A stretch of DNA of 64,000 nt from Haloferax litoreum (GTDB lineage Archaea > Halobacteriota > Halobacteria > Halobacteriales > Haloferacaceae). Position 1 is the first letter of the stretch, and each line of letters starts with the position of its first letter. Both the position numbers and the translations under genes were made by a program. The notes under the pieces were generated by a model. It was given only the letters and a program-made list of their open reading frames with translations, made no database searches and was not told the origin of the DNA. The stretch covers positions 1,860,001-1,924,000 of the forward strand of contig NZ_WKJO01000001.1 of the NCBI RefSeq assembly GCF_009674605.1, in the 5' to 3' direction. Of the stretch, positions 6,019 through 27,864 are shown in pieces.

Positions 6019-6729
6019 TTAGACCCGGGCGTCGTGTCGGCGGAGGGCGTCGTGGAGTGAAAAGAGCGGTTCGATGTCGCCGGCGGCGTAGTCGACGAGC
6101 AAGCGAGTGAGTTCGGCGTGCGTGTGCGTGTGGTCGATGCCAGCGACGACGCCTTCGACGTATCGCTCCCCGAGGGCCTCACCGACGTGCGCACCTTTGA
6201 CGTGTGAGTCGTCGATTCCGAGGCTGTCGAGATAGTCAGCCGAGAGGTCGTAGTCGTCGTACCACACGGTGGGTTGGTCGACGCCGGCCTCCTCGCAGGC
6301 TTTCCAGAGTGCGGGGATGTCCCTGTTCGACCGGACGGCGTGCGGAAACGCTGTCGCCGCGAGCGTTCCGAGGTCGACGTGGTCCGAAAAGAGTGCGTCA
6401 ACGTGAGACGGTGCGTCGGGCCAGATGCCTTCGTCTGCGACCTGTCGCGCCCACGCTCGAAGGTGATGTTCGTCGAAGTACTCGCCGTTGTAGGTGACGA
6501 CTGGACCACCGCGTTTCTCACACCACTCGACGACTGCCCGAAGGAGTTCGGCGGTGTGTTCGACTGCCCAGTCGCCATCGCGGAGGAGGACTTCGACTTC
6601 GGTACCGCCGTCGGTTCGGTAGCCGAGTCCGACGGCGACAAGTTCGAAGTCGGCCGTGTTCCGGAAGTCACTCGGCGGTCCGTGCGGGCTCGCCGTCTCG
6701 ATGTCGAGTGCGAGTCGCCCTTCGTTCAT
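6019..6729 (-). CDS. DnaQ-like 3'-5' exonuclease / RNase H-fold nuclease
   Basis: I chose the ATG at 6729; the frame stays open further upstream but with non-protein-like composition. The 236-residue protein has the exonuclease I motif L-A-L-D-I-E-T (Asp 9, Glu 11), the motif II region VVTYNGEYFDEHHLRAW, and a C-terminal Y-A-A-G-D-I-E-P motif of DEDDy type. HVDLGTLAATAFP lies between. This fits the predicted PolB-like/RNase_H_2 3'-5' exonuclease group. The role is probably trimming of DNA or RNA ends; the substrate is unknown. The gene stands alone and runs away from the repeat-protein genes. Confidence 0.8.
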   Translation of the reverse strand: MNEGRLALDIETASPHGPPSDFRNTADFELVAVGLGYRTDGGTEVEVLLRDGDWAVEHTAELLRAVVEWCEKRGGPVVTYNGEYFDEHHLRAWARQVADEGIWPDAPSHVDALFSDHVDLGTLAATAFPHAVRSNRDIPALWKACEEAGVDQPTVWYDDYDLSADYLDSLGIDDSHVKGAHVGEALGERYVEGVVAGIDHTHTHAELTRLLVDYAAGDIEPLFSLHDALRRHDARV

Positions 6730-7267
6730 ACACTGCCTGTCTCGAATGGGATACAAAAATCGGCAGGGTCGACTGTTCGTCTGTGACTGACCGGAACTCC
6801 CGAGTAGGGAGTGACGGCCGTCGTCACTTCTCTCCGTTTCTCGTCGTGTTCTCCGATGGGACCCTCGAAGATGGGTTCGTTTGTGTTCTGAATACGGCGT
6901 GCATAACGAGTGTGCACGACGAGAGTAAAACGCACCTGACACGTTCTGTCTCACAGCTACCGAACTGCGAGGCTGCCGGAGGCCGTCTTCGTCCTGCATT
7001 TTTCTGAGCGGTGTCCGAGGTTTCGTCGTGCCACCTCGTCTCTCGACGAGTTCCTGATTCGTCGCTCTCTGTGAAATTCTTGGCTCGGTGATGGTTCGTC
7101 TGGCGTCTTGATTAACACGCGACTATCCGGTGTTCGCGAGACACAATCACTGTCGGGTCCCGCCGCAATTGGACTCCAGTGTGTTGGAAATGAATGTCCC
7201 TCGGAGTGATAGCTAATTAATAACAAATTGTCAACATGTACGATTGCTCGGTGGTGCTTCGACCACC
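6730..7267. other. 538-bp non-coding region upstream of the curlin-like genes
   Basis: No convincing ORF is present. It holds the promoter of the exonuclease gene on the minus strand and, next to the repeat-protein gene, an AT-rich stretch (TAATTAATAACAAATTG at about 7214-7230) that could carry the TATA and BRE elements. A short inverted repeat (ACTCCC-GAGTA-GGGAGT) lies near 6797-6813. The length is unusual for this compact genome and suggests a regulated promoter. Confidence 0.5.
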
Positions 7268-9346
7268 ATGGCAGCACGAACAACACTACAAAGCGCACTC
7301 GTCGTTCTCGTCGCGGTGACGGTCATGTTCAGCATGGGCGCCGCCGCAGCAGGACACGGCGGTACTGGACCGGCGTGTACAGCAGAAGACGGTGCACAAT
7401 ACCAAGACCAATCGTTCGATCGTGACCAAGACCAATCGCAAGCGGGCTCGGACAACACACAAAGCCAGAGCCAGATAGCGTCGATGGTCGTCGGTCAAGA
7501 CCAGTGCAGTGACGAAAGTGACCAGTCTCAGTCCCAAGACCTTGGCCAGAACCAAGAACAGGACCAAGACGCGACGGACAGTGACCAGGCCCAGAGCCAG
7601 TCGTCCGGTCAGACTGAGGCGCAGAGTCAGTACGGCGAGGACAACGACCAAGAGCAGCGTCAGAGCCTCGACCAAGACCAAGAACAAGACCAGAACGGCG
7701 ACGAACTCGCCCAAGAGCAGTCGCAGGAGGCAGGTCAGGCGCAGATGGAGAACCAGCGCGGTGAAGGCAACCAGCAATCGCAGACTGAGCGCCTGACGCA
7801 GATGCAGATGCAGTCGCAGGGGAACCACCCCATCGTGGGCAGCACACAGTACGGAGACCAGGTCTCCGAACAAATCGGTCAGGTGAACCAGCGCGGTGAG
7901 AACAGCGTCCAGGACATCATGGCCGTCATCGACCAACTGCAAGAGCAGTACCAACTCGCTGATTACAGCGACCAAGGCCAAGACCAGTTCGCTCGCCAGC
8001 ACGCGAACGCTCGCCAGCACGCTGACGACAGCGAACAGACTCTGTCGCAACTTATCGGGCAGTACCACGCCCAGATGCAGTACGGTCAGTACAACGAACA
8101 GTACCAAGACCAGTCCGCTCGCCAACACGCGAACGAGCGGCAGTGGGCCGACGACAGTGACCAGTCGCTCAACCAGTACATCGAGCAACTTCGCGACCAG
8201 ATTCAGGACGCAGAATACAGCTCGCAAGAACACACTCAGGACGCTCGCCAGCACGCGAACCAGCGTCAGTGGGGCGAAGACAACGACCAGGACCTGAGCC
8301 AACTCATCTCGCAGGACGCTTCGCAGACCCAGATAGGTGAGTACAACGACCAGTTCGGTGAACAGACCGCCACCCAGCGTGCGAACCAGCGCCAGTGGGG
8401 CGAAGACAACGACCAGGACTTCGACCAGGACGCCGTCCAGACGCAAGACCAGTCGCAGGCTGGTGAAGACAACTCCCAGGAACAGACCCAGGAGAACGAA
8501 CAGCGCGGTCAGCAGCGTCAGTGGGGCGAAGACAACGACCAGAGCCGGACCCAGTCGTCGGCTCAGACGAGCTCCCAGACGCAGACCGGCGAAGACAACG
8601 ACCAGCAGGCCGACCAGTCGTCGAGCCAGCGTGAACGTCAGCACCAGTCCGGTGAGGACAACACGCAGACGCAAGACCAGACCTCCGACCAGACCGAGAG
8701 TCAGAACCAGCAGGGTGAAGACAACAGTCAGGAGCAGTCGCAGACTGACGACCAGCACCAACACGCGACGCAGCAGGACGGCGAAAACAACGACCAGTCG
8801 CAAGACCAGACGTCCGTCCAGGGTCAGAGTCAGGACCAGGCTGGCGAAGAAAACGACCAGACGCAGACGCAGGACGCAGACAAGACGCAAGAACAGGAAC
8901 AGCAGAGCGACGACAGCTCGCAGGACCAGAGCCAGACCTCTGGCCAAGAACAGGTCCAGAACCAGGACGCTGAAGACAGCTCCCAGGACCAGAGCCAGAC
9001 CGTCGACCAAGACGAAGAACAGACCCAAGAGACCGATGGCAGCAGTCAGTCGCAGGACCAGACTGCGACCCAGACTGAGAGCCAAGAACAGACCGGCGAA
9101 GACAACGACCAAGCACAGTCGCAAGACGCTGACCAAGACCAGACCCAAGAGCAGACTGGCGACGACAGCAGTCAGACCCAGAGTCAGACCTCGGGTCAGG
9201 GTCAGTCACAGACGCAGTCTGGCGAGGACAACGTCCAGGAGCAGACCCAGGACGCTGACCAAGACCAGACCCAAGAGCAGTCTGCTGACGACAGCAGTCA
9301 GACCCAGAGTCAGACGGTGACGCAAACGCAGACGCAGAGCCAGTAA
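7268..9346 (+). CDS. Secreted Gln/Asp-rich curlin-like repeat protein (candidate amyloid subunit 1)
   Basis: I chose the ATG at 7268 because it gives a clean Sec signal peptide (hydrophobic SALVVLVAVTVMF, cleavage near GAAAAGHG). A TTG at 7244 is in frame but unlikely. Nearly all of the 692 residues are repeats of about 21 residues with the core Q-x-G-x-x-N-x-Q-x-x-x-Q, for example QYGEDNDQEQRQ, QIGEYNDQFGEQ and QTGEDNDQQADQ. I count 16 exact Q-x-G-x-x-N cores. Gln alternates along the flanking strands (QxQxQ), as in a beta-solenoid ladder. The spacing equals the bacterial curlin repeat, with Gln where curlin has Ala. Residues about 242-451 form five 42-residue super-repeats with Trp and His. 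Repeats run to the last residue and there is no PGF-CTERM. The inferred role is an extracellular amyloid or matrix fibre; a passive acidic matrix polymer is the main alternative. Confidence 0.75.
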   Translation: MAARTTLQSALVVLVAVTVMFSMGAAAAGHGGTGPACTAEDGAQYQDQSFDRDQDQSQAGSDNTQSQSQIASMVVGQDQCSDESDQSQSQDLGQNQEQDQDATDSDQAQSQSSGQTEAQSQYGEDNDQEQRQSLDQDQEQDQNGDELAQEQSQEAGQAQMENQRGEGNQQSQTERLTQMQMQSQGNHPIVGSTQYGDQVSEQIGQVNQRGENSVQDIMAVIDQLQEQYQLADYSDQGQDQFARQHANARQHADDSEQTLSQLIGQYHAQMQYGQYNEQYQDQSARQHANERQWADDSDQSLNQYIEQLRDQIQDAEYSSQEHTQDARQHANQRQWGEDNDQDLSQLISQDASQTQIGEYNDQFGEQTATQRANQRQWGEDNDQDFDQDAVQTQDQSQAGEDNSQEQTQENEQRGQQRQWGEDNDQSRTQSSAQTSSQTQTGEDNDQQADQSSSQRERQHQSGEDNTQTQDQTSDQTESQNQQGEDNSQEQSQTDDQHQHATQQDGENNDQSQDQTSVQGQSQDQAGEENDQTQTQDADKTQEQEQQSDDSSQDQSQTSGQEQVQNQDAEDSSQDQSQTVDQDEEQTQETDGSSQSQDQTATQTESQEQTGEDNDQAQSQDADQDQTQEQTGDDSSQTQSQTSGQGQSQTQSGEDNVQEQTQDADQDQTQEQSADDSSQTQSQTVTQTQTQSQ
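7991..8620 (+). repeat. Five tandem 126-bp (42-residue) units inside curlin-like gene 1
   Basis: The units begin at 7991, 8117, 8243, 8369 and 8495 with no length change. Each encodes ARQHAN or a variant (ATQRAN, NEQRGQ), then R-Q-[HW]-[AG]-[DE]-D-[SN]-[DE]-Q and a second 21-residue half. This is a higher-order duplication of two basic units. Confidence 0.85.
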
Positions 9347-9368
9347 GCGACCACTCTCCTCGAGTTCT

Positions 9369-9386
9369 CCGCCGGATGCCCGGCGG
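9369..9386 (+). terminator. Hairpin between the two curlin-like genes
   Basis: CCGCCGG-ATGC-CCGGCGG forms a perfect 7-bp stem in the 64-bp gap between the genes, with no T-run directly after it. It could attenuate read-through so that the first gene is expressed more than the second, or stabilise the upstream mRNA. Function inferred. Confidence 0.5.
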
Positions 9387-9410
9387 GACTCTCATTATCT
9401 AGAGGTATTC

Positions 9411-11750
9411 ATGAAATCGACAACGAAATCGAGTTCACTGTTGGTGGTTGCTGTCGCGCTTCTCGTCGTCATCGGAACGACTGGGCTCGTCGCACCGATA
9501 CAGGTCGGATCGAACCAACTGGACGGTGCAGCAGCAGCCTTGGACAGTGGCGCGCAACAACCGAGTATCGCTAACGAACAATCGCAGTACAGTGCAGGGC
9601 CCGGTACACCGACCGGAGACGTCTCTGTGTCGAACCCGTCCGACTCAGATTCGGACGACGATGACGCAGGTGACGCCAGTTCGAACCAGGCAGATTCGTC
9701 CGCCGACGGTGACGACAACGAGCAATCGCAACACAGCGAAGGACCCGGTTCGCCGACCGGAGACGACTCCGACTCGAACGCGGACGACTCCGATTCAGAG
9801 AACTCCGACTCGAATTCGGGTAACTCTGGGTCGAATTCGGACGACTCCGACTCCAATTCAGACGACTCTGATTCGAACTCGGACAGTTCCGAGTCGTCTG
9901 ACCACCACGACGACAACCCCGACCGCGCCGACGGCGCGGACGGGAGCGTGAACCCCTCCGAGAACACCGGTCCGAGTGAGGACAGCGACCAATCGAGCGA
10001 CCAAACGGTCGACCAATCGCAGGACCAATCGCAGTCCGGCGAGGACAACGACCAGTCGCAGGGTCAGGCCTTCGCGCGCGGACAAGACCAGTCGCAGTCC
10101 GGCGAAGACAACGACCAAGACCAGTCCCAAGACGGGAACCAGCGGCAGACGCAGGCCCAGTCTGGCGAAGACAGTAGCCAGACGCAGGGGCAGGCCACTG
10201 GACAGACGCAGACCCAGACCCAAGACGGGACGGCCAACCAGCAGAACGAAGAACAGGACGCCGCACAGCGTCAGAGTCAGACCCAGAGCGGCGACGACAG
10301 CGAGCAGTGCCAGACCGAAGATACGACGCAAGAACAGGAGCAAGCACAAGACAGTGAGGACAGCGAACAGTCGCAAGGTCAACTCGCCGATCAAGACCAG
10401 AGTCAAGCACAGTCCGGCGACGACAGCACGCAGTGCCAGAGTCAGACGGACACGCAGTCGCAGGACCAAGAACAGACTGGCGAGAGCAACGACCAGTCGC
10501 AACGCCAGTCGGACGACCAGGCTCAACAGCAGAGTCAGTCCGGCGACGACAGTGACCAGGCGCAAGGCCAAGAGAGCGAGCAGACGCAAGACCAGGCCCA
10601 GTCCGGCGAAGACAACGACCAGCAACAGCGTCAGTCCGACGACCAGACACAACAGCAGACGCAGTCCGCTGACGACAGCGACCAAACACAGGACCAGACG
10701 TCCGACCAGGGTCAAAGTCAGCGTCAGACCGGCGACGGTGCCGAGCAAGACCAGTCGCAGGACACAGACCAGACGCAAGACCAGACCCAGTCCGGCGAAG
10801 ACAGTTCGCAGGACCAGTCGCAAGATGCCGACCAGTCGCAAGACCAAACTCAGTCCGACGACGATTCGTCGCAGAACCAGCGACAGACGTCTGACCAGAA
10901 TCAGGCCCAGAGTCAGAGCGGTGACGGCAACACCCAGACACAGGGCCAGACGTCCGACCAGGACCAGGCGCAAGGTCAGTCCGGCGGCGACCAGGACCAG
11001 ACGCAGTCGGTAGCCCAGTCGCAGTCGCAGGAACAAGACACCGGGTCGCAGGCAGGTCAGGGCCAAGGTCAAGCCCAGGGGACCACCTCGTCGAACGACG
11101 ACCAGGTGTCGTCGAACATCGACGTTCAGGTTCAGGTCACCGTCGACGGCCAGACCTATCAGGGCCAGACGCAAGTCTCCAGTCAGACCCAACAACAGTC
11201 TGGCACTGTGATGACCGACGGCGGCCAGACGCAGGGTCAGACCATCATCCAGACGCAGGTCCAGATTCAAATCGGCGATAACAACCAGCAGTCGCAGAGC
11301 CAGAGCGCCGACCAGGACCAAGAACAGTCTGCGAGTGACGCGTCGAGCGACTCAGACGACTCGACGAGTGGAACCCAAAGCGAGAGTCAGTCGACTACCC
11401 AGTCGCAAGGTCAGGTGCAAGTCGGCGACGGCAACTCCCAGAGTCAGAGTCAGAGCGCTGAAGAAGAGCAGAGACAGGGTGACGGGTCGAGTTCCGACGA
11501 CGGCGAGAGCCACTCCGAGGAAACCGACTCTAACAGTACCGACAACGCTTCGGACTCGACTGAAGACGCTGGAAGTGAGTCGAACGACTCCACCGACTCG
11601 AATGACGGCGGCGAGCAGACTGACAACTCGTCGTCTGACGGCGGCGAGCAAACCGACAGTTCGTCATCCGACGACTCGAACAACGAACAGAACCAGACCG
11701 ACGACATCGACACGAGTTCCGACTCGGACGACGGTTCGTCGGAGAACTAA
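9411..11750 (+). CDS. Secreted curlin-like repeat protein with acidic Ser/Asp flanks (candidate subunit 2)
   Basis: This is a 779-residue protein. A signal peptide covers residues 1-30 (LLVVAVALLVVIGTTGLVAP). The N-terminal region to about 200 has two copies of a NEQSQ-[YH]-S-x-GPG-[ST]-PTGD motif separated by Ser/Asp/Asn runs. Residues about 208-522 are fifteen back-to-back 21-residue curlin-like units (for example QSGEDNDQSQGQ and QSGDGNTQTQGQ, with N often replaced by S). A less repetitive beta-rich segment follows (VQVQVTVDGQTYQGQ), then two more good cores (QIGDNNQQSQSQ and QVGDGNSQSQSQ). The last ~110 residues are a Ser/Asp/Glu tail without LPXTG or PGF-CTERM. Two Cys lie in equivalent positions of two units (EQCQ, TQCQ). 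The layout suggests a nucleator, linker or surface-anchored partner of the first protein; this is inference. Confidence 0.75.
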   Translation: MKSTTKSSSLLVVAVALLVVIGTTGLVAPIQVGSNQLDGAAAALDSGAQQPSIANEQSQYSAGPGTPTGDVSVSNPSDSDSDDDDAGDASSNQADSSADGDDNEQSQHSEGPGSPTGDDSDSNADDSDSENSDSNSGNSGSNSDDSDSNSDDSDSNSDSSESSDHHDDNPDRADGADGSVNPSENTGPSEDSDQSSDQTVDQSQDQSQSGEDNDQSQGQAFARGQDQSQSGEDNDQDQSQDGNQRQTQAQSGEDSSQTQGQATGQTQTQTQDGTANQQNEEQDAAQRQSQTQSGDDSEQCQTEDTTQEQEQAQDSEDSEQSQGQLADQDQSQAQSGDDSTQCQSQTDTQSQDQEQTGESNDQSQRQSDDQAQQQSQSGDDSDQAQGQESEQTQDQAQSGEDNDQQQRQSDDQTQQQTQSADDSDQTQDQTSDQGQSQRQTGDGAEQDQSQDTDQTQDQTQSGEDSSQDQSQDADQSQDQTQSDDDSSQNQRQTSDQNQAQSQSGDGNTQTQGQTSDQDQAQGQSGGDQDQTQSVAQSQSQEQDTGSQAGQGQGQAQGTTSSNDDQVSSNIDVQVQVTVDGQTYQGQTQVSSQTQQQSGTVMTDGGQTQGQTIIQTQVQIQIGDNNQQSQSQSADQDQEQSASDASSDSDDSTSGTQSESQSTTQSQGQVQVGDGNSQSQSQSAEEEQRQGDGSSSDDGESHSEETDSNSTDNASDSTEDAGSESNDSTDSNDGGEQTDNSSSDGGEQTDSSSSDDSNNEQNQTDDIDTSSDSDDGSSEN
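10032..10976 (+). repeat. Fifteen exact-length 63-bp tandem units in curlin-like gene 2
   Basis: Unit starts fall every 63 bp from 10032 (checked at 10095, 10158, 10221, 10284, 10347, 10410, 10473, 10536 and on to 10914) with no insertion or deletion. Each encodes one 21-residue Q-[ST]-G-[ED]-[DG]-[NS]-x-Q-x-Q-x-Q unit. The nucleotide sequence of units has diverged, so the length is kept by selection on the protein. Confidence 0.9.
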
Positions 11751-11762
11751 CCGAATCGACAC

Positions 11763-11788
11763 CGACATCGGTCTCCCGGCCGATGTCG
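11763..11788 (+). terminator. Hairpin after curlin-like gene 2
   Basis: CGACATCGG and CCGATGTCG form a perfect 9-bp stem with an 8-nt loop, 13 bp after the stop codon. A CTTT run lies a few bases further on. It probably ends or stabilises the transcript of the repeat-protein genes. Confidence 0.6.
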
Positions 11789-11924
11789 TGCGCTTTGGTC
11801 CAACTCTTTATCGACAGTGCCTCGCGAGACACCCGTGGTTCACCTGTGGACGAACGTCAGTCGGGGTAGACATAACAGTCACTCGCCCAACATTTACATC
11901 GTGCCTCCGCCCGTTCTATCGCGT

Positions 11925-12491
11925 ATGGCTCGAAGACCAAGGGCGGAAGCGCGGCGAGCGAGACGAGAAGACCGCGGTATCGGACGCCGTGGCGGGAGAC
12001 GAGAGTGGGAGCGCTACAAGATGACGCAGAAGCTCATCTCTATCGGGGACGACTTCTACGTCGAGAATCAGGCCGGGATGCGTGTGTTCAAAATCGACGG
12101 GAAGGCCCTCCGCGTCCGGGACACCCTCGTGATGGAGGACCTCCAGAGCGGGGACACCTACAGAATTCAAGAGAAAATCGTCCGCATCAAGGACACCATG
12201 ACGGTACAGAAGGACGGTCGCCCCGAAGCGACTATCAAGAAAGCACTCATCACGCCCCTCCGAGACCGGTTTACCATCTCCATCGGTGGTGGCCGTGACC
12301 TCACGGTGAAAGGGAACATCCTCGACCACGAGTACAGGCTGATGCGCAACGGTGAACGCGTCGCAGAAGTCTCGAAGAAGTGGTTCCGTATCCGCGACTC
12401 CTACGGTATCGAAGTCTCCCCGGAGATGGACACTGGTCTCGTGGTCGCCTGTACAGTCGCCCTCGACATGATGGTTCACCCAACGCGGTGA
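11925..12491 (+). CDS. LURP-one-related (tubby-like fold) protein
   Basis: I chose the ATG at 11925. A basic, Arg-rich N-terminus (residues 1-32) precedes the domain, so an internal start at YKMTQK is possible. The 188-residue protein has the repeating beta-hairpin pattern of the LURP-one/YxjI family: FYVENQAGMRVFKIDGKALRVRD, then DTYRIQEKIVRIKDTMTV, RDLTVKGNILDHEYRL and SKKWFRIRDSYGIEV. The family forms a 12-stranded barrel around a central helix. Plant members are linked to defence and membrane lipids; the archaeal function is unknown. CATTTACA at 11891-11898 is a possible TATA box. It lies directly downstream of the curlin-like pair on the same strand, but behind a hairpin and with its own promoter. 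Confidence 0.8.
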   Translation: MARRPRAEARRARREDRGIGRRGGRREWERYKMTQKLISIGDDFYVENQAGMRVFKIDGKALRVRDTLVMEDLQSGDTYRIQEKIVRIKDTMTVQKDGRPEATIKKALITPLRDRFTISIGGGRDLTVKGNILDHEYRLMRNGERVAEVSKKWFRIRDSYGIEVSPEMDTGLVVACTVALDMMVHPTR

Positions 12492-27274: not shown

Positions 27275-27345
27275 GCGCTGGTAGTGTAGTGGTATCACGT
27301 GACCTTGCCATGGTCACAACCTGGGTTCAAATCCCAGCCAGCGCA
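27275..27345 (+). tRNA. tRNA-Gly (anticodon GCC), copy 1
   Basis: This is a 71-nt cloverleaf. The acceptor stem GCGCTGG pairs fully with CCAGCGC and is followed by discriminator A. The anticodon loop is CTTGCCATG with anticodon GCC. The T-arm is CTGGGTTCAAATCCCAG. No CCA is encoded and no intron is present. It lies 12 bp before copy 2. Confidence 0.95.
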
Positions 27346-27357
27346 CTTCCACCTCAT

Positions 27358-27428
27358 GCGTCGGTAGTGTAGTGGTATCACGTGACCTTGCCATGGTCAC
27401 AACCTGGGTTCAAATCCCAGCCGACGCA
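27358..27428 (+). tRNA. tRNA-Gly (anticodon GCC), copy 2
   Basis: This 71-nt gene is identical to copy 1 except in the acceptor stem. Here GCGTCGG pairs with CCGACGC; the fourth and fifth base pairs are swapped on both strands, so pairing is kept. Anticodon GCC. It is probably co-transcribed with copy 1. Confidence 0.95.
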
Positions 27429-27864
27429 CTTCTCCACCGAACCTACCTTCCGAGCGACCGCTGTGCGTGTCGCTCGGACTGTGAGTTGTGAATGCGACAC
27501 TCTGGGATTTGAACTAGCGAGCGAACGAAGTGAGCGAGTGAAGTTCACAATCCCAGCCGACGCACTTTCTGAACGGAACCAAACGAGGAGTCGATAGACT
27601 CCGAGTTTCTGTGGAGTGAGGAAACCGCCTCGACTCGGTTCAATCCCGTCACACCGGTCACTCACTTCGTTCGTTCCCGGGAGTTCCTGAGTCCCCCTCA
27701 CTCGGTTCGCGGGACTCCCAGCCGACGCACTTCGGACGAACCTCCCGTCTGAACGAACTTCGTGAGCGAGAGACACCGCCGGTCCAGTGACTGTCTTTCC
27801 GAAAAATGGTTCCACGAGTAAATTTAAGTCAACATTTTTACATGTGTCCGACGTGCGTCTCGGT
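27429..27864 (+). repeat. Gene-free region with two partial copies of the tRNA-Gly 3' end
   Basis: The sequence AATCCCAGCCGACGCACTT at the end of tRNA-Gly copy 2 recurs as (A)ATCCCAGCCGACGCACTT ending near 27567 and as CTCCCAGCCGACGCACTT ending near 27732. Before the first recurrence there is an inverted T-arm copy (CTGGGATTTGAACT at 27502-27515) facing AGTTCACAATCCCAG (27542-27556). CGAGCGAACGAAGTGAGCGAG lies between them, and its relative CTCACTTCGTTCGTTC near 27661. No ORF is convincing. The last ~50 bp hold an AT-rich promoter (TAAATTTAAG, about 27819-27828) for the next gene. Confidence 0.75.

Follow-up and report, generated by a model that had tools for sequence, protein, structure and literature searches.

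Two adjacent genes of Haloferax litoreum have, in our judgement, an even chance of encoding a cross-beta protein that assembles by itself into a surface fibre or matrix (gene 1) and a surface-tethered partner (gene 2), and they may serve in assembly, surface tethering, adhesion or biofilms. They lie in the window, by which we mean the whole stretch of 64,000 nucleotides that was analysed. The sequence shows export-type N-termini, an exact repeat, an apparent one-strand-one-turn alternation and selection on a Gln face; three genomes carry the genes as a tandem pair, and more distant ones have comparable adjacent pairs. The features of the locus are as follows.

7268..9346, plus strand: gene 1, intact ORF for the major repeat protein, putatively secreted, 692 aa with ~30 21-residue units
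7268..7357, plus strand: gene 1 predicted export signal, residues 1-30, hydrophobic, ending ..GAAAAGHG
7370..9343, plus strand: array of gene 1, with the repeat unit N-(x-Q)3-x-[ASIV]-(x-Q)4-x-G-[ED]-D
7805-7882, plus strand: irregular stretch inside the gene 1 repeat array, ~residues 180-205
9411..11750, plus strand: gene 2, intact ORF for the 779-aa partner repeat protein; pair conserved in L048/L003 and L014
9411..9545, plus strand: hydrophobic N-terminus of gene 2, either an export signal or a membrane anchor
9606..10001, plus strand: gene 2 acidic Ser/Asp-rich linker, ~residues 66-197, probable spacer
10014..11030, plus strand: array of 15-16 21-residue units in gene 2 (residues 202-540)
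11085..11480, plus strand: gene 2 beta-rich Gln domain (..VQVQVTVDGQTYQGQTQV..MTDGGQ..QVQIQIGDNNQ..) with two isolated units, conserved in each of the three orthologues; may serve in docking or nucleation
11481..11747, plus strand: gene 2 acidic Ser/Asp-rich tail
6775..11914, no strand: segment missing from the orthologous site in two same-genus genomes, an empty site between the flanking genes
6019-6729, minus strand: flanking gene, presumably exonuclease-like
12021-12491, plus strand: flanking gene, presumably LURP-one-like

The names of the two flanking genes come from sequence recognition without a profile search and are to be taken as our assumption. A preliminary description of this DNA had given both repeat proteins signal peptides, and direct reading, which is also the basis for the linker and tail of gene 2, found a hydrophobic export-type N-terminus on each, as on every family member whose sequence was read (the window pair and relatives). 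Glutamine makes up 28.5% of the mature chain of gene 1 and 23.3% of that of gene 2. The AT skew is very strong, up to 0.65, across the repeat genes (7000-12000), because one strand carries the CAG/CAA and GAC/GAA codons. Elsewhere in the window, two tRNA-Gly (GCC) genes stand in tandem with 11 bases between them (27275-27346 and 27358-27429).

The ~21-residue repeat unit claimed for both proteins was confirmed, far above shuffled sequences. Autocorrelation peaked at lags 21 and 42, with values of 0.38 and 0.42 for gene 1 (shuffle maximum 0.18) and 0.31 and 0.32 for gene 2 (shuffle maximum 0.23). The motif QxGxxNxQ occurred 16 times in gene 1 and 8 times in gene 2, against means of 0.14 and 0.19 and a maximum of 3 in 1000 shuffles. 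The longer core QxGxxNxQxxxQ was found 15 and 8 times where 0.05 was expected, which bears out the proposed spacing of Q at 0, G at +2, N at +5 and Q at +11; the Gln placed at +7, where CsgA has Ala, was also correct. Strict QxGxxN cores had been counted as 16 and 7, and here the repeats stood while the numbers did not, our recount giving 17 for gene 1 and 8 for gene 2, one more each. Cores were spaced by 21 residues or multiples of 21, the exceptions in gene 1 being one interval of 22 and one irregular stretch of ~45 residues; its array stays in register over ~30 units, with one extra residue near 503. The identity at lag 42 exceeded that at lag 21 in all 21-type proteins tested, and a sister group has a repeat of 47 residues made of 23 + 24. 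Taken together, the lag-42 excess and the 23/24 alternation indicate that two units form a higher repeat, so that the true repeat is best read as 42 residues, a point which the earlier description missed.

We counted positions within the unit from the turn Asn (0) and assessed strand parity over positions 0 to 16. In gene 1, 79 of 207 odd positions were charged vs 7 of 207 even positions (Fisher 6e-20), in agreement with the earlier placing of Asp/Glu at outward positions; the corresponding counts for gene 2 were 36/108 and 6/108. Position 8, where curlin has its second arc, was charged in 7 of 151 units from ten proteins, against 74/151 at position 7 and 92/151 at position 9 (166/302 together; Fisher 1.5e-29). 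Gene 2 alone was charged there in 3 of 12 units, which marks it as the more degenerate member. Alternation was likewise maintained across 19 residues in the 23/24-residue units. Because parity runs unbroken through the place of the second arc, the unit is best read as a single predicted beta-strand of 17 residues, amphipathic and with glutamine on one face, followed by one turn; the earlier description had missed this as well. In a charge-pairing test opposite charges paired better in an antiparallel arrangement, with shuffles of limb order not significant (P 0.32, 0.14 and 0.07), and the strand topology may be either an antiparallel meander or a wide two-limb beta-arch solenoid.

Structure prediction with AlphaFold2 gave different pictures for long and short inputs. 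Full-length gene 1, with an input of only two sequences, gave a mean pLDDT of 40, mostly coil or disorder with one weak long helix; the helix was set aside, as conservation alternates every second residue and not every 3-4. A 91-residue C-terminal stretch, with an input of 19 in-register unit rows from the window and Halobellus, was modelled as all-beta, with strands of 15-18 residues and breaks at G-x-x-N (pLDDT 73, pTM 0.47; the other four models 49-58). A5, an overlapping alignment with shifted register, was dropped after it had collapsed onto itself. When the all-beta model was submitted to Foldseek, no PDB match was found at E <= 0.001 (best E 0.07), and the 50 matches listed included antiparallel beta-hairpin proteins and no curlin chain. 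AlphaFold2 is known to give confident but unrealistic ordered beta structures on repeat sequences (PMC11795689), and given this bias the all-beta model is weak support for long strands. The AlphaFold2 models give no support to a curlin solenoid, which the preliminary description had expected from a few units.

Selection on the two faces was measured against a sister species. Between the gene 1 sequences pN/pS was 0.07 on the even face and 0.44 on the odd face (P 9e-6), whilst in the gene 2 array amino-acid changes were seen at 0 of 143 even sites and 18 of 155 odd sites (P 9e-5), with synonymous changes almost equally divided (21 at even, 22 at odd sites). Purifying selection is thus strong at the even positions, those of the face presumed buried, and the beta-type inward/outward alternation proposed earlier is both present and selected. 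This contrast in rates argues for a structure that buries every second residue, and against a disordered polymer kept by slippage alone. Such a polymer would be an intrinsically disordered, acidic, Gln-rich secreted chain that forms a hydration coat in the manner of mucin or halomucin; its repeats would come from DNA slippage and have no fold. The low-complexity Gln/Asp/Ser-rich composition would suit it, as would the low-confidence full-length AlphaFold2 model and the disordered look of the Ser/Asp-rich flanks of gene 2. We consider it unlikely, since slippage alone does not predict that alternating positions evolve at very different rates, nor that phase is kept over ~30 units and at ~52% identity.

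The preliminary description had gone further and offered both proteins as a candidate curli-like amyloid, with the 21-residue units as strand-loop-strand coils of the curlin type. The published curlin kernel, N-$-psi-$-psi-$-Q-X-G-X-X, has two strands and two arcs per ~22 residues (PMC10192328). Family membership was not borne out by the searches: Pfam and NCBIfam scans of both proteins gave no match at E up to 10, the curlin profile PF07012 included, a PDB sequence search with both gave no match, and hmmscan assigned no curlin family to the window proteins or to the relatives scanned. Among 393 genomes of the phylum PF07012 had 0 matches, with a positive E. coli control; matches in relatives were all below the cut-off. 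The CsgE/F/G-like genes reported missing from the window were absent from the whole genome as well (profiles PF03783, PF10614 and PF10627), again with a positive E. coli control. Archaea have no outer membrane, so this absence speaks to the operon and not to fibre formation.

Comparison with the kernel itself was more mixed. Of the 21 registers, the predicted one fitted the E. coli and Pontibacter kernels best, and the X-G-X-X-N turn and its Gln/Asn flanks match, so the curlin-like spacing stood in this part; its significance was modest, with a column-permutation P of 0.0016, or 0.005 with the Gln columns kept, and 0.07 against bacterial kernels with the Gln columns fixed. Log-odds of the window units vs bacterial curlin kernels were negative. 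The inward positions psi1 and psi2 are mostly Gln in the window proteins, not hydrophobic or Ser/Thr; in the 47-residue sister group they are partly Ala/Val/Ser. We found no parity break at the place of the second arc, and therefore not the two arcs and two short strands of a curlin unit.

A true curlin-type fold would have strand-arc-strand-arc per 21 residues, with arc 2 cut to three residues and an in-register CsgA-like stack around a Gln core. The coincidence of Q0, G+2, N+5 and Q+11 with the curlin kernel and the permutation values above speak for such a fold, and bacterial curlins with purely hydrophilic Ser/Thr cores have been reported (PMC10192328). We nevertheless hold it to be very unlikely, as parity runs on through the supposed arc 2, where the residue is small and of inward type, lag 42 beats lag 21, PF07012 is silent, the log-odds are negative (with P 0.07 once the Gln columns are fixed), and AlphaFold2 returned no solenoid. 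The curlin interpretation as a whole is partly supported, and the fibres and biofilm role suggested with it are plausible. The window proteins resemble CsgA/CsgB in being a putatively secreted tandem repeat pair with the X-G-X-X-N arc, Gln/Asn ladders, strict inward/outward alternation and a polar outer face. They differ in having one long predicted strand and one arc per 21 residues, where a CsgA/CsgB unit of 22 has two of each, the strands being short, and Gln in place of a hydrophobic core, as well as in their acidic outer face, the lack of CsgE/F/G and the lack of a Pfam match.

Relatives were sought by a profile search that covered 342 genomes of the order, and by DNA patterns derived from the proposed structure. 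In the sister species (same-genus genome G006) both genes are present, with identities of 87% and 91%. A tandem pair also occurs in Halobellus inordinatus YC20, at 52% and 53% identity and at another genomic site, beside epimerase-like and glycosyltransferase-like genes instead of the neighbours seen in the window. In two other same-genus genomes the exonuclease-like and LURP-one-like genes are adjacent with no insert, and these empty orthologous sites indicate that the segment 6775-11914 is a unit of gain or loss. The pair is present in 2 of 15 genomes of the genus, and such patchiness indicates that it is not an essential surface component. The LURP-one-like gene is tandemly duplicated in one same-genus genome (L053, G005).

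The pattern for the 21-residue unit matched 6 of 391 Halobacteria genomes, 5 with real arrays, whilst the reversed pattern matched 0 in all; the lone match in G068 looks like chance, with no array there. The pattern for the 23 + 24 unit matched 7 of 341 genomes (control 0). The 21 + 21 sub-type is found in G000, G006, G236, G739 and G274, and the 23 + 24 sub-type in G068, G074, G215, G259, G301, G312 and G333, with G132 and G163 added from the profile search. These searches place the same design in a scattered set of Halobacteria, at least 13 of the several hundred genomes tested. Genome G274 (locus L041) has CsgA-sized tandem members of 145 and 148 residues, each with four to five units (unit QSGAFNYQDQYQDNDQKQKAK). 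A tblastn search of viral contigs found no relatives; pattern matching gave two isolated single matches there.

The array gene often has a partner beside it. In the window, G006 and Halobellus it is followed by a gene of the gene 2 type. Two more distant loci, L040 (8793-10478) and L084 (9266-11176), have an adjacent second long Gln-repeat gene in reverse order, and by inspection these second genes are like gene 2 in their acidic N-terminal region, their shorter array and an additional domain outside the repeats. At three loci of the 23 + 24 group, a large secreted protein of FG-GAP type is encoded upstream of the array gene, at a distance of one or two genes (L042 2341-6690, L044 2174-6103 and L046 4054-7683). 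FG-GAP repeats were recognized by Pfam in L042 (E 8e-35) and L046 (5e-29), and the L044 partner has a Gln domain homologous to that of these two. All three are laid out as an integrin-alpha-like N-terminus, then an acidic linker and lastly a beta domain rich in Gln. The similarity in sequence between the C-terminal domain of gene 2 and the Gln domain of the FG-GAP partners was not significant, so the parallel between them rests on position and architecture.

Other neighbours were noted in the course of this comparison. Beside array genes of the 47-residue type lies a secreted protein of 412-415 aa (L043 12331-13566 and L047 8975-10219, both on the minus strand), with Gln/Asn and hydrophobic beta-like repeats of its own (..AEVYQENSQTTDQNATVTVDAERAAVLVVQLNVQENDQ..) and no Pfam family. 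A DUF7344 (HTH-like) gene, possibly a regulator, is found near five array loci of different genera, recognized by Pfam in L014 (14131-14721), L040 (14433-14801), L043 (14124-14708) and L046 (10813-11373) and by similarity to L043 in L047 (10775-11359).

The FG-GAP proteins adjoining array genes would also fit a folded, monomeric beta-repeat stalk or adhesin, a rod that holds its partner off the cell and does not self-assemble into fibres. The arrays are long and variable in length, and an acidic outward face would keep such a protein soluble. We find this quite unlikely, because the nearly uncharged Gln-rich face of each strand would be sticky and would need burial between sheets, and because the CsgA-sized tandem relatives of L041 suit polymerising subunits better.

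In the self-assembling arrangement that we prefer, the two genes would encode a pair of exported proteins of a single family. Each unit would form a long amphipathic beta-strand, N-x-Q-x-Q-x-Q-x-small-x-Q-x-Q-x-Q-x-Q, followed by a tight X-G-[E/D]-[D]-N turn, with strands alternating in pairs to give the structural repeat of 42 residues. One face of the strand would be a ladder of glutamine and asparagine with small residues, and the other would be acidic and fit for high salt. The Gln faces of stacked strands may then pack together and be buried, inside one molecule and probably also between molecules, so that a cross-beta fibre, sheet or matrix results. Gene 1 would be the bulk subunit. The hydrophobic N-terminus, long acidic spacer, shorter array and extra beta domain of gene 2 suggest a tethered or nucleating partner, which would anchor the assembly at the cell surface, and the integrin-alpha-like FG-GAP head of the distant partners points to adhesion. 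More tentatively, at somewhat less than an even chance, the family may be a class of archaeal cross-beta fibre with an ancestry separate from curli and convergent with it only at the turn: 17-19-residue Gln-ladder strands with one turn per unit, adapted to brine, and a bulk subunit with a surface-tethered partner that has an FG-GAP head in some lineages.

The family is absent from protein-family databases so far, and a literature search found no account of a Gln-ladder repeat family. The relevant part of Dueholm 2012 reports a single archaeal protein picked up by the CsgA/B repeat model, its curli-like repeats set at regular intervals (PMC3521004); the spacing is curli-like as here, and the protein is unnamed in that part and set aside there as a non-curli match. 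The cross-beta silk of lacewing egg stalks, with its 16-residue periodicity (PMC5485732), is likewise a short-unit cross-beta material resembling the one-strand-per-unit design proposed here; it is from an insect and rich in Ser/Gly/Ala, so the likeness is one of design only. The sheath amyloids of Methanosaeta and Methanospirillum (PMC6242892) are archaeal extracellular functional amyloids, a status for which the present proteins are candidates; those sheath proteins differ in that they form tubular cell sheaths.

Congo red and thioflavin T both stain haloarchaeal biofilms; the study of Haloferax volcanii names a single candidate gene, which is homologous to a Sulfolobus acylphosphatase, and the genetic basis is unconfirmed (PMC4180959). 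A recognisable gene pair offers testable candidates for this question of biofilm amyloid, in the species that carry the pair. The comparison also sharpens what is to be called curli-like, as a common turn spacing does not mean a common architecture. If the proposed structure is true, these proteins would show a zipper of almost nothing but glutamine serving as structural material in brine, a setting in which the classical rules for hydrophobic cores and surface charge differ.
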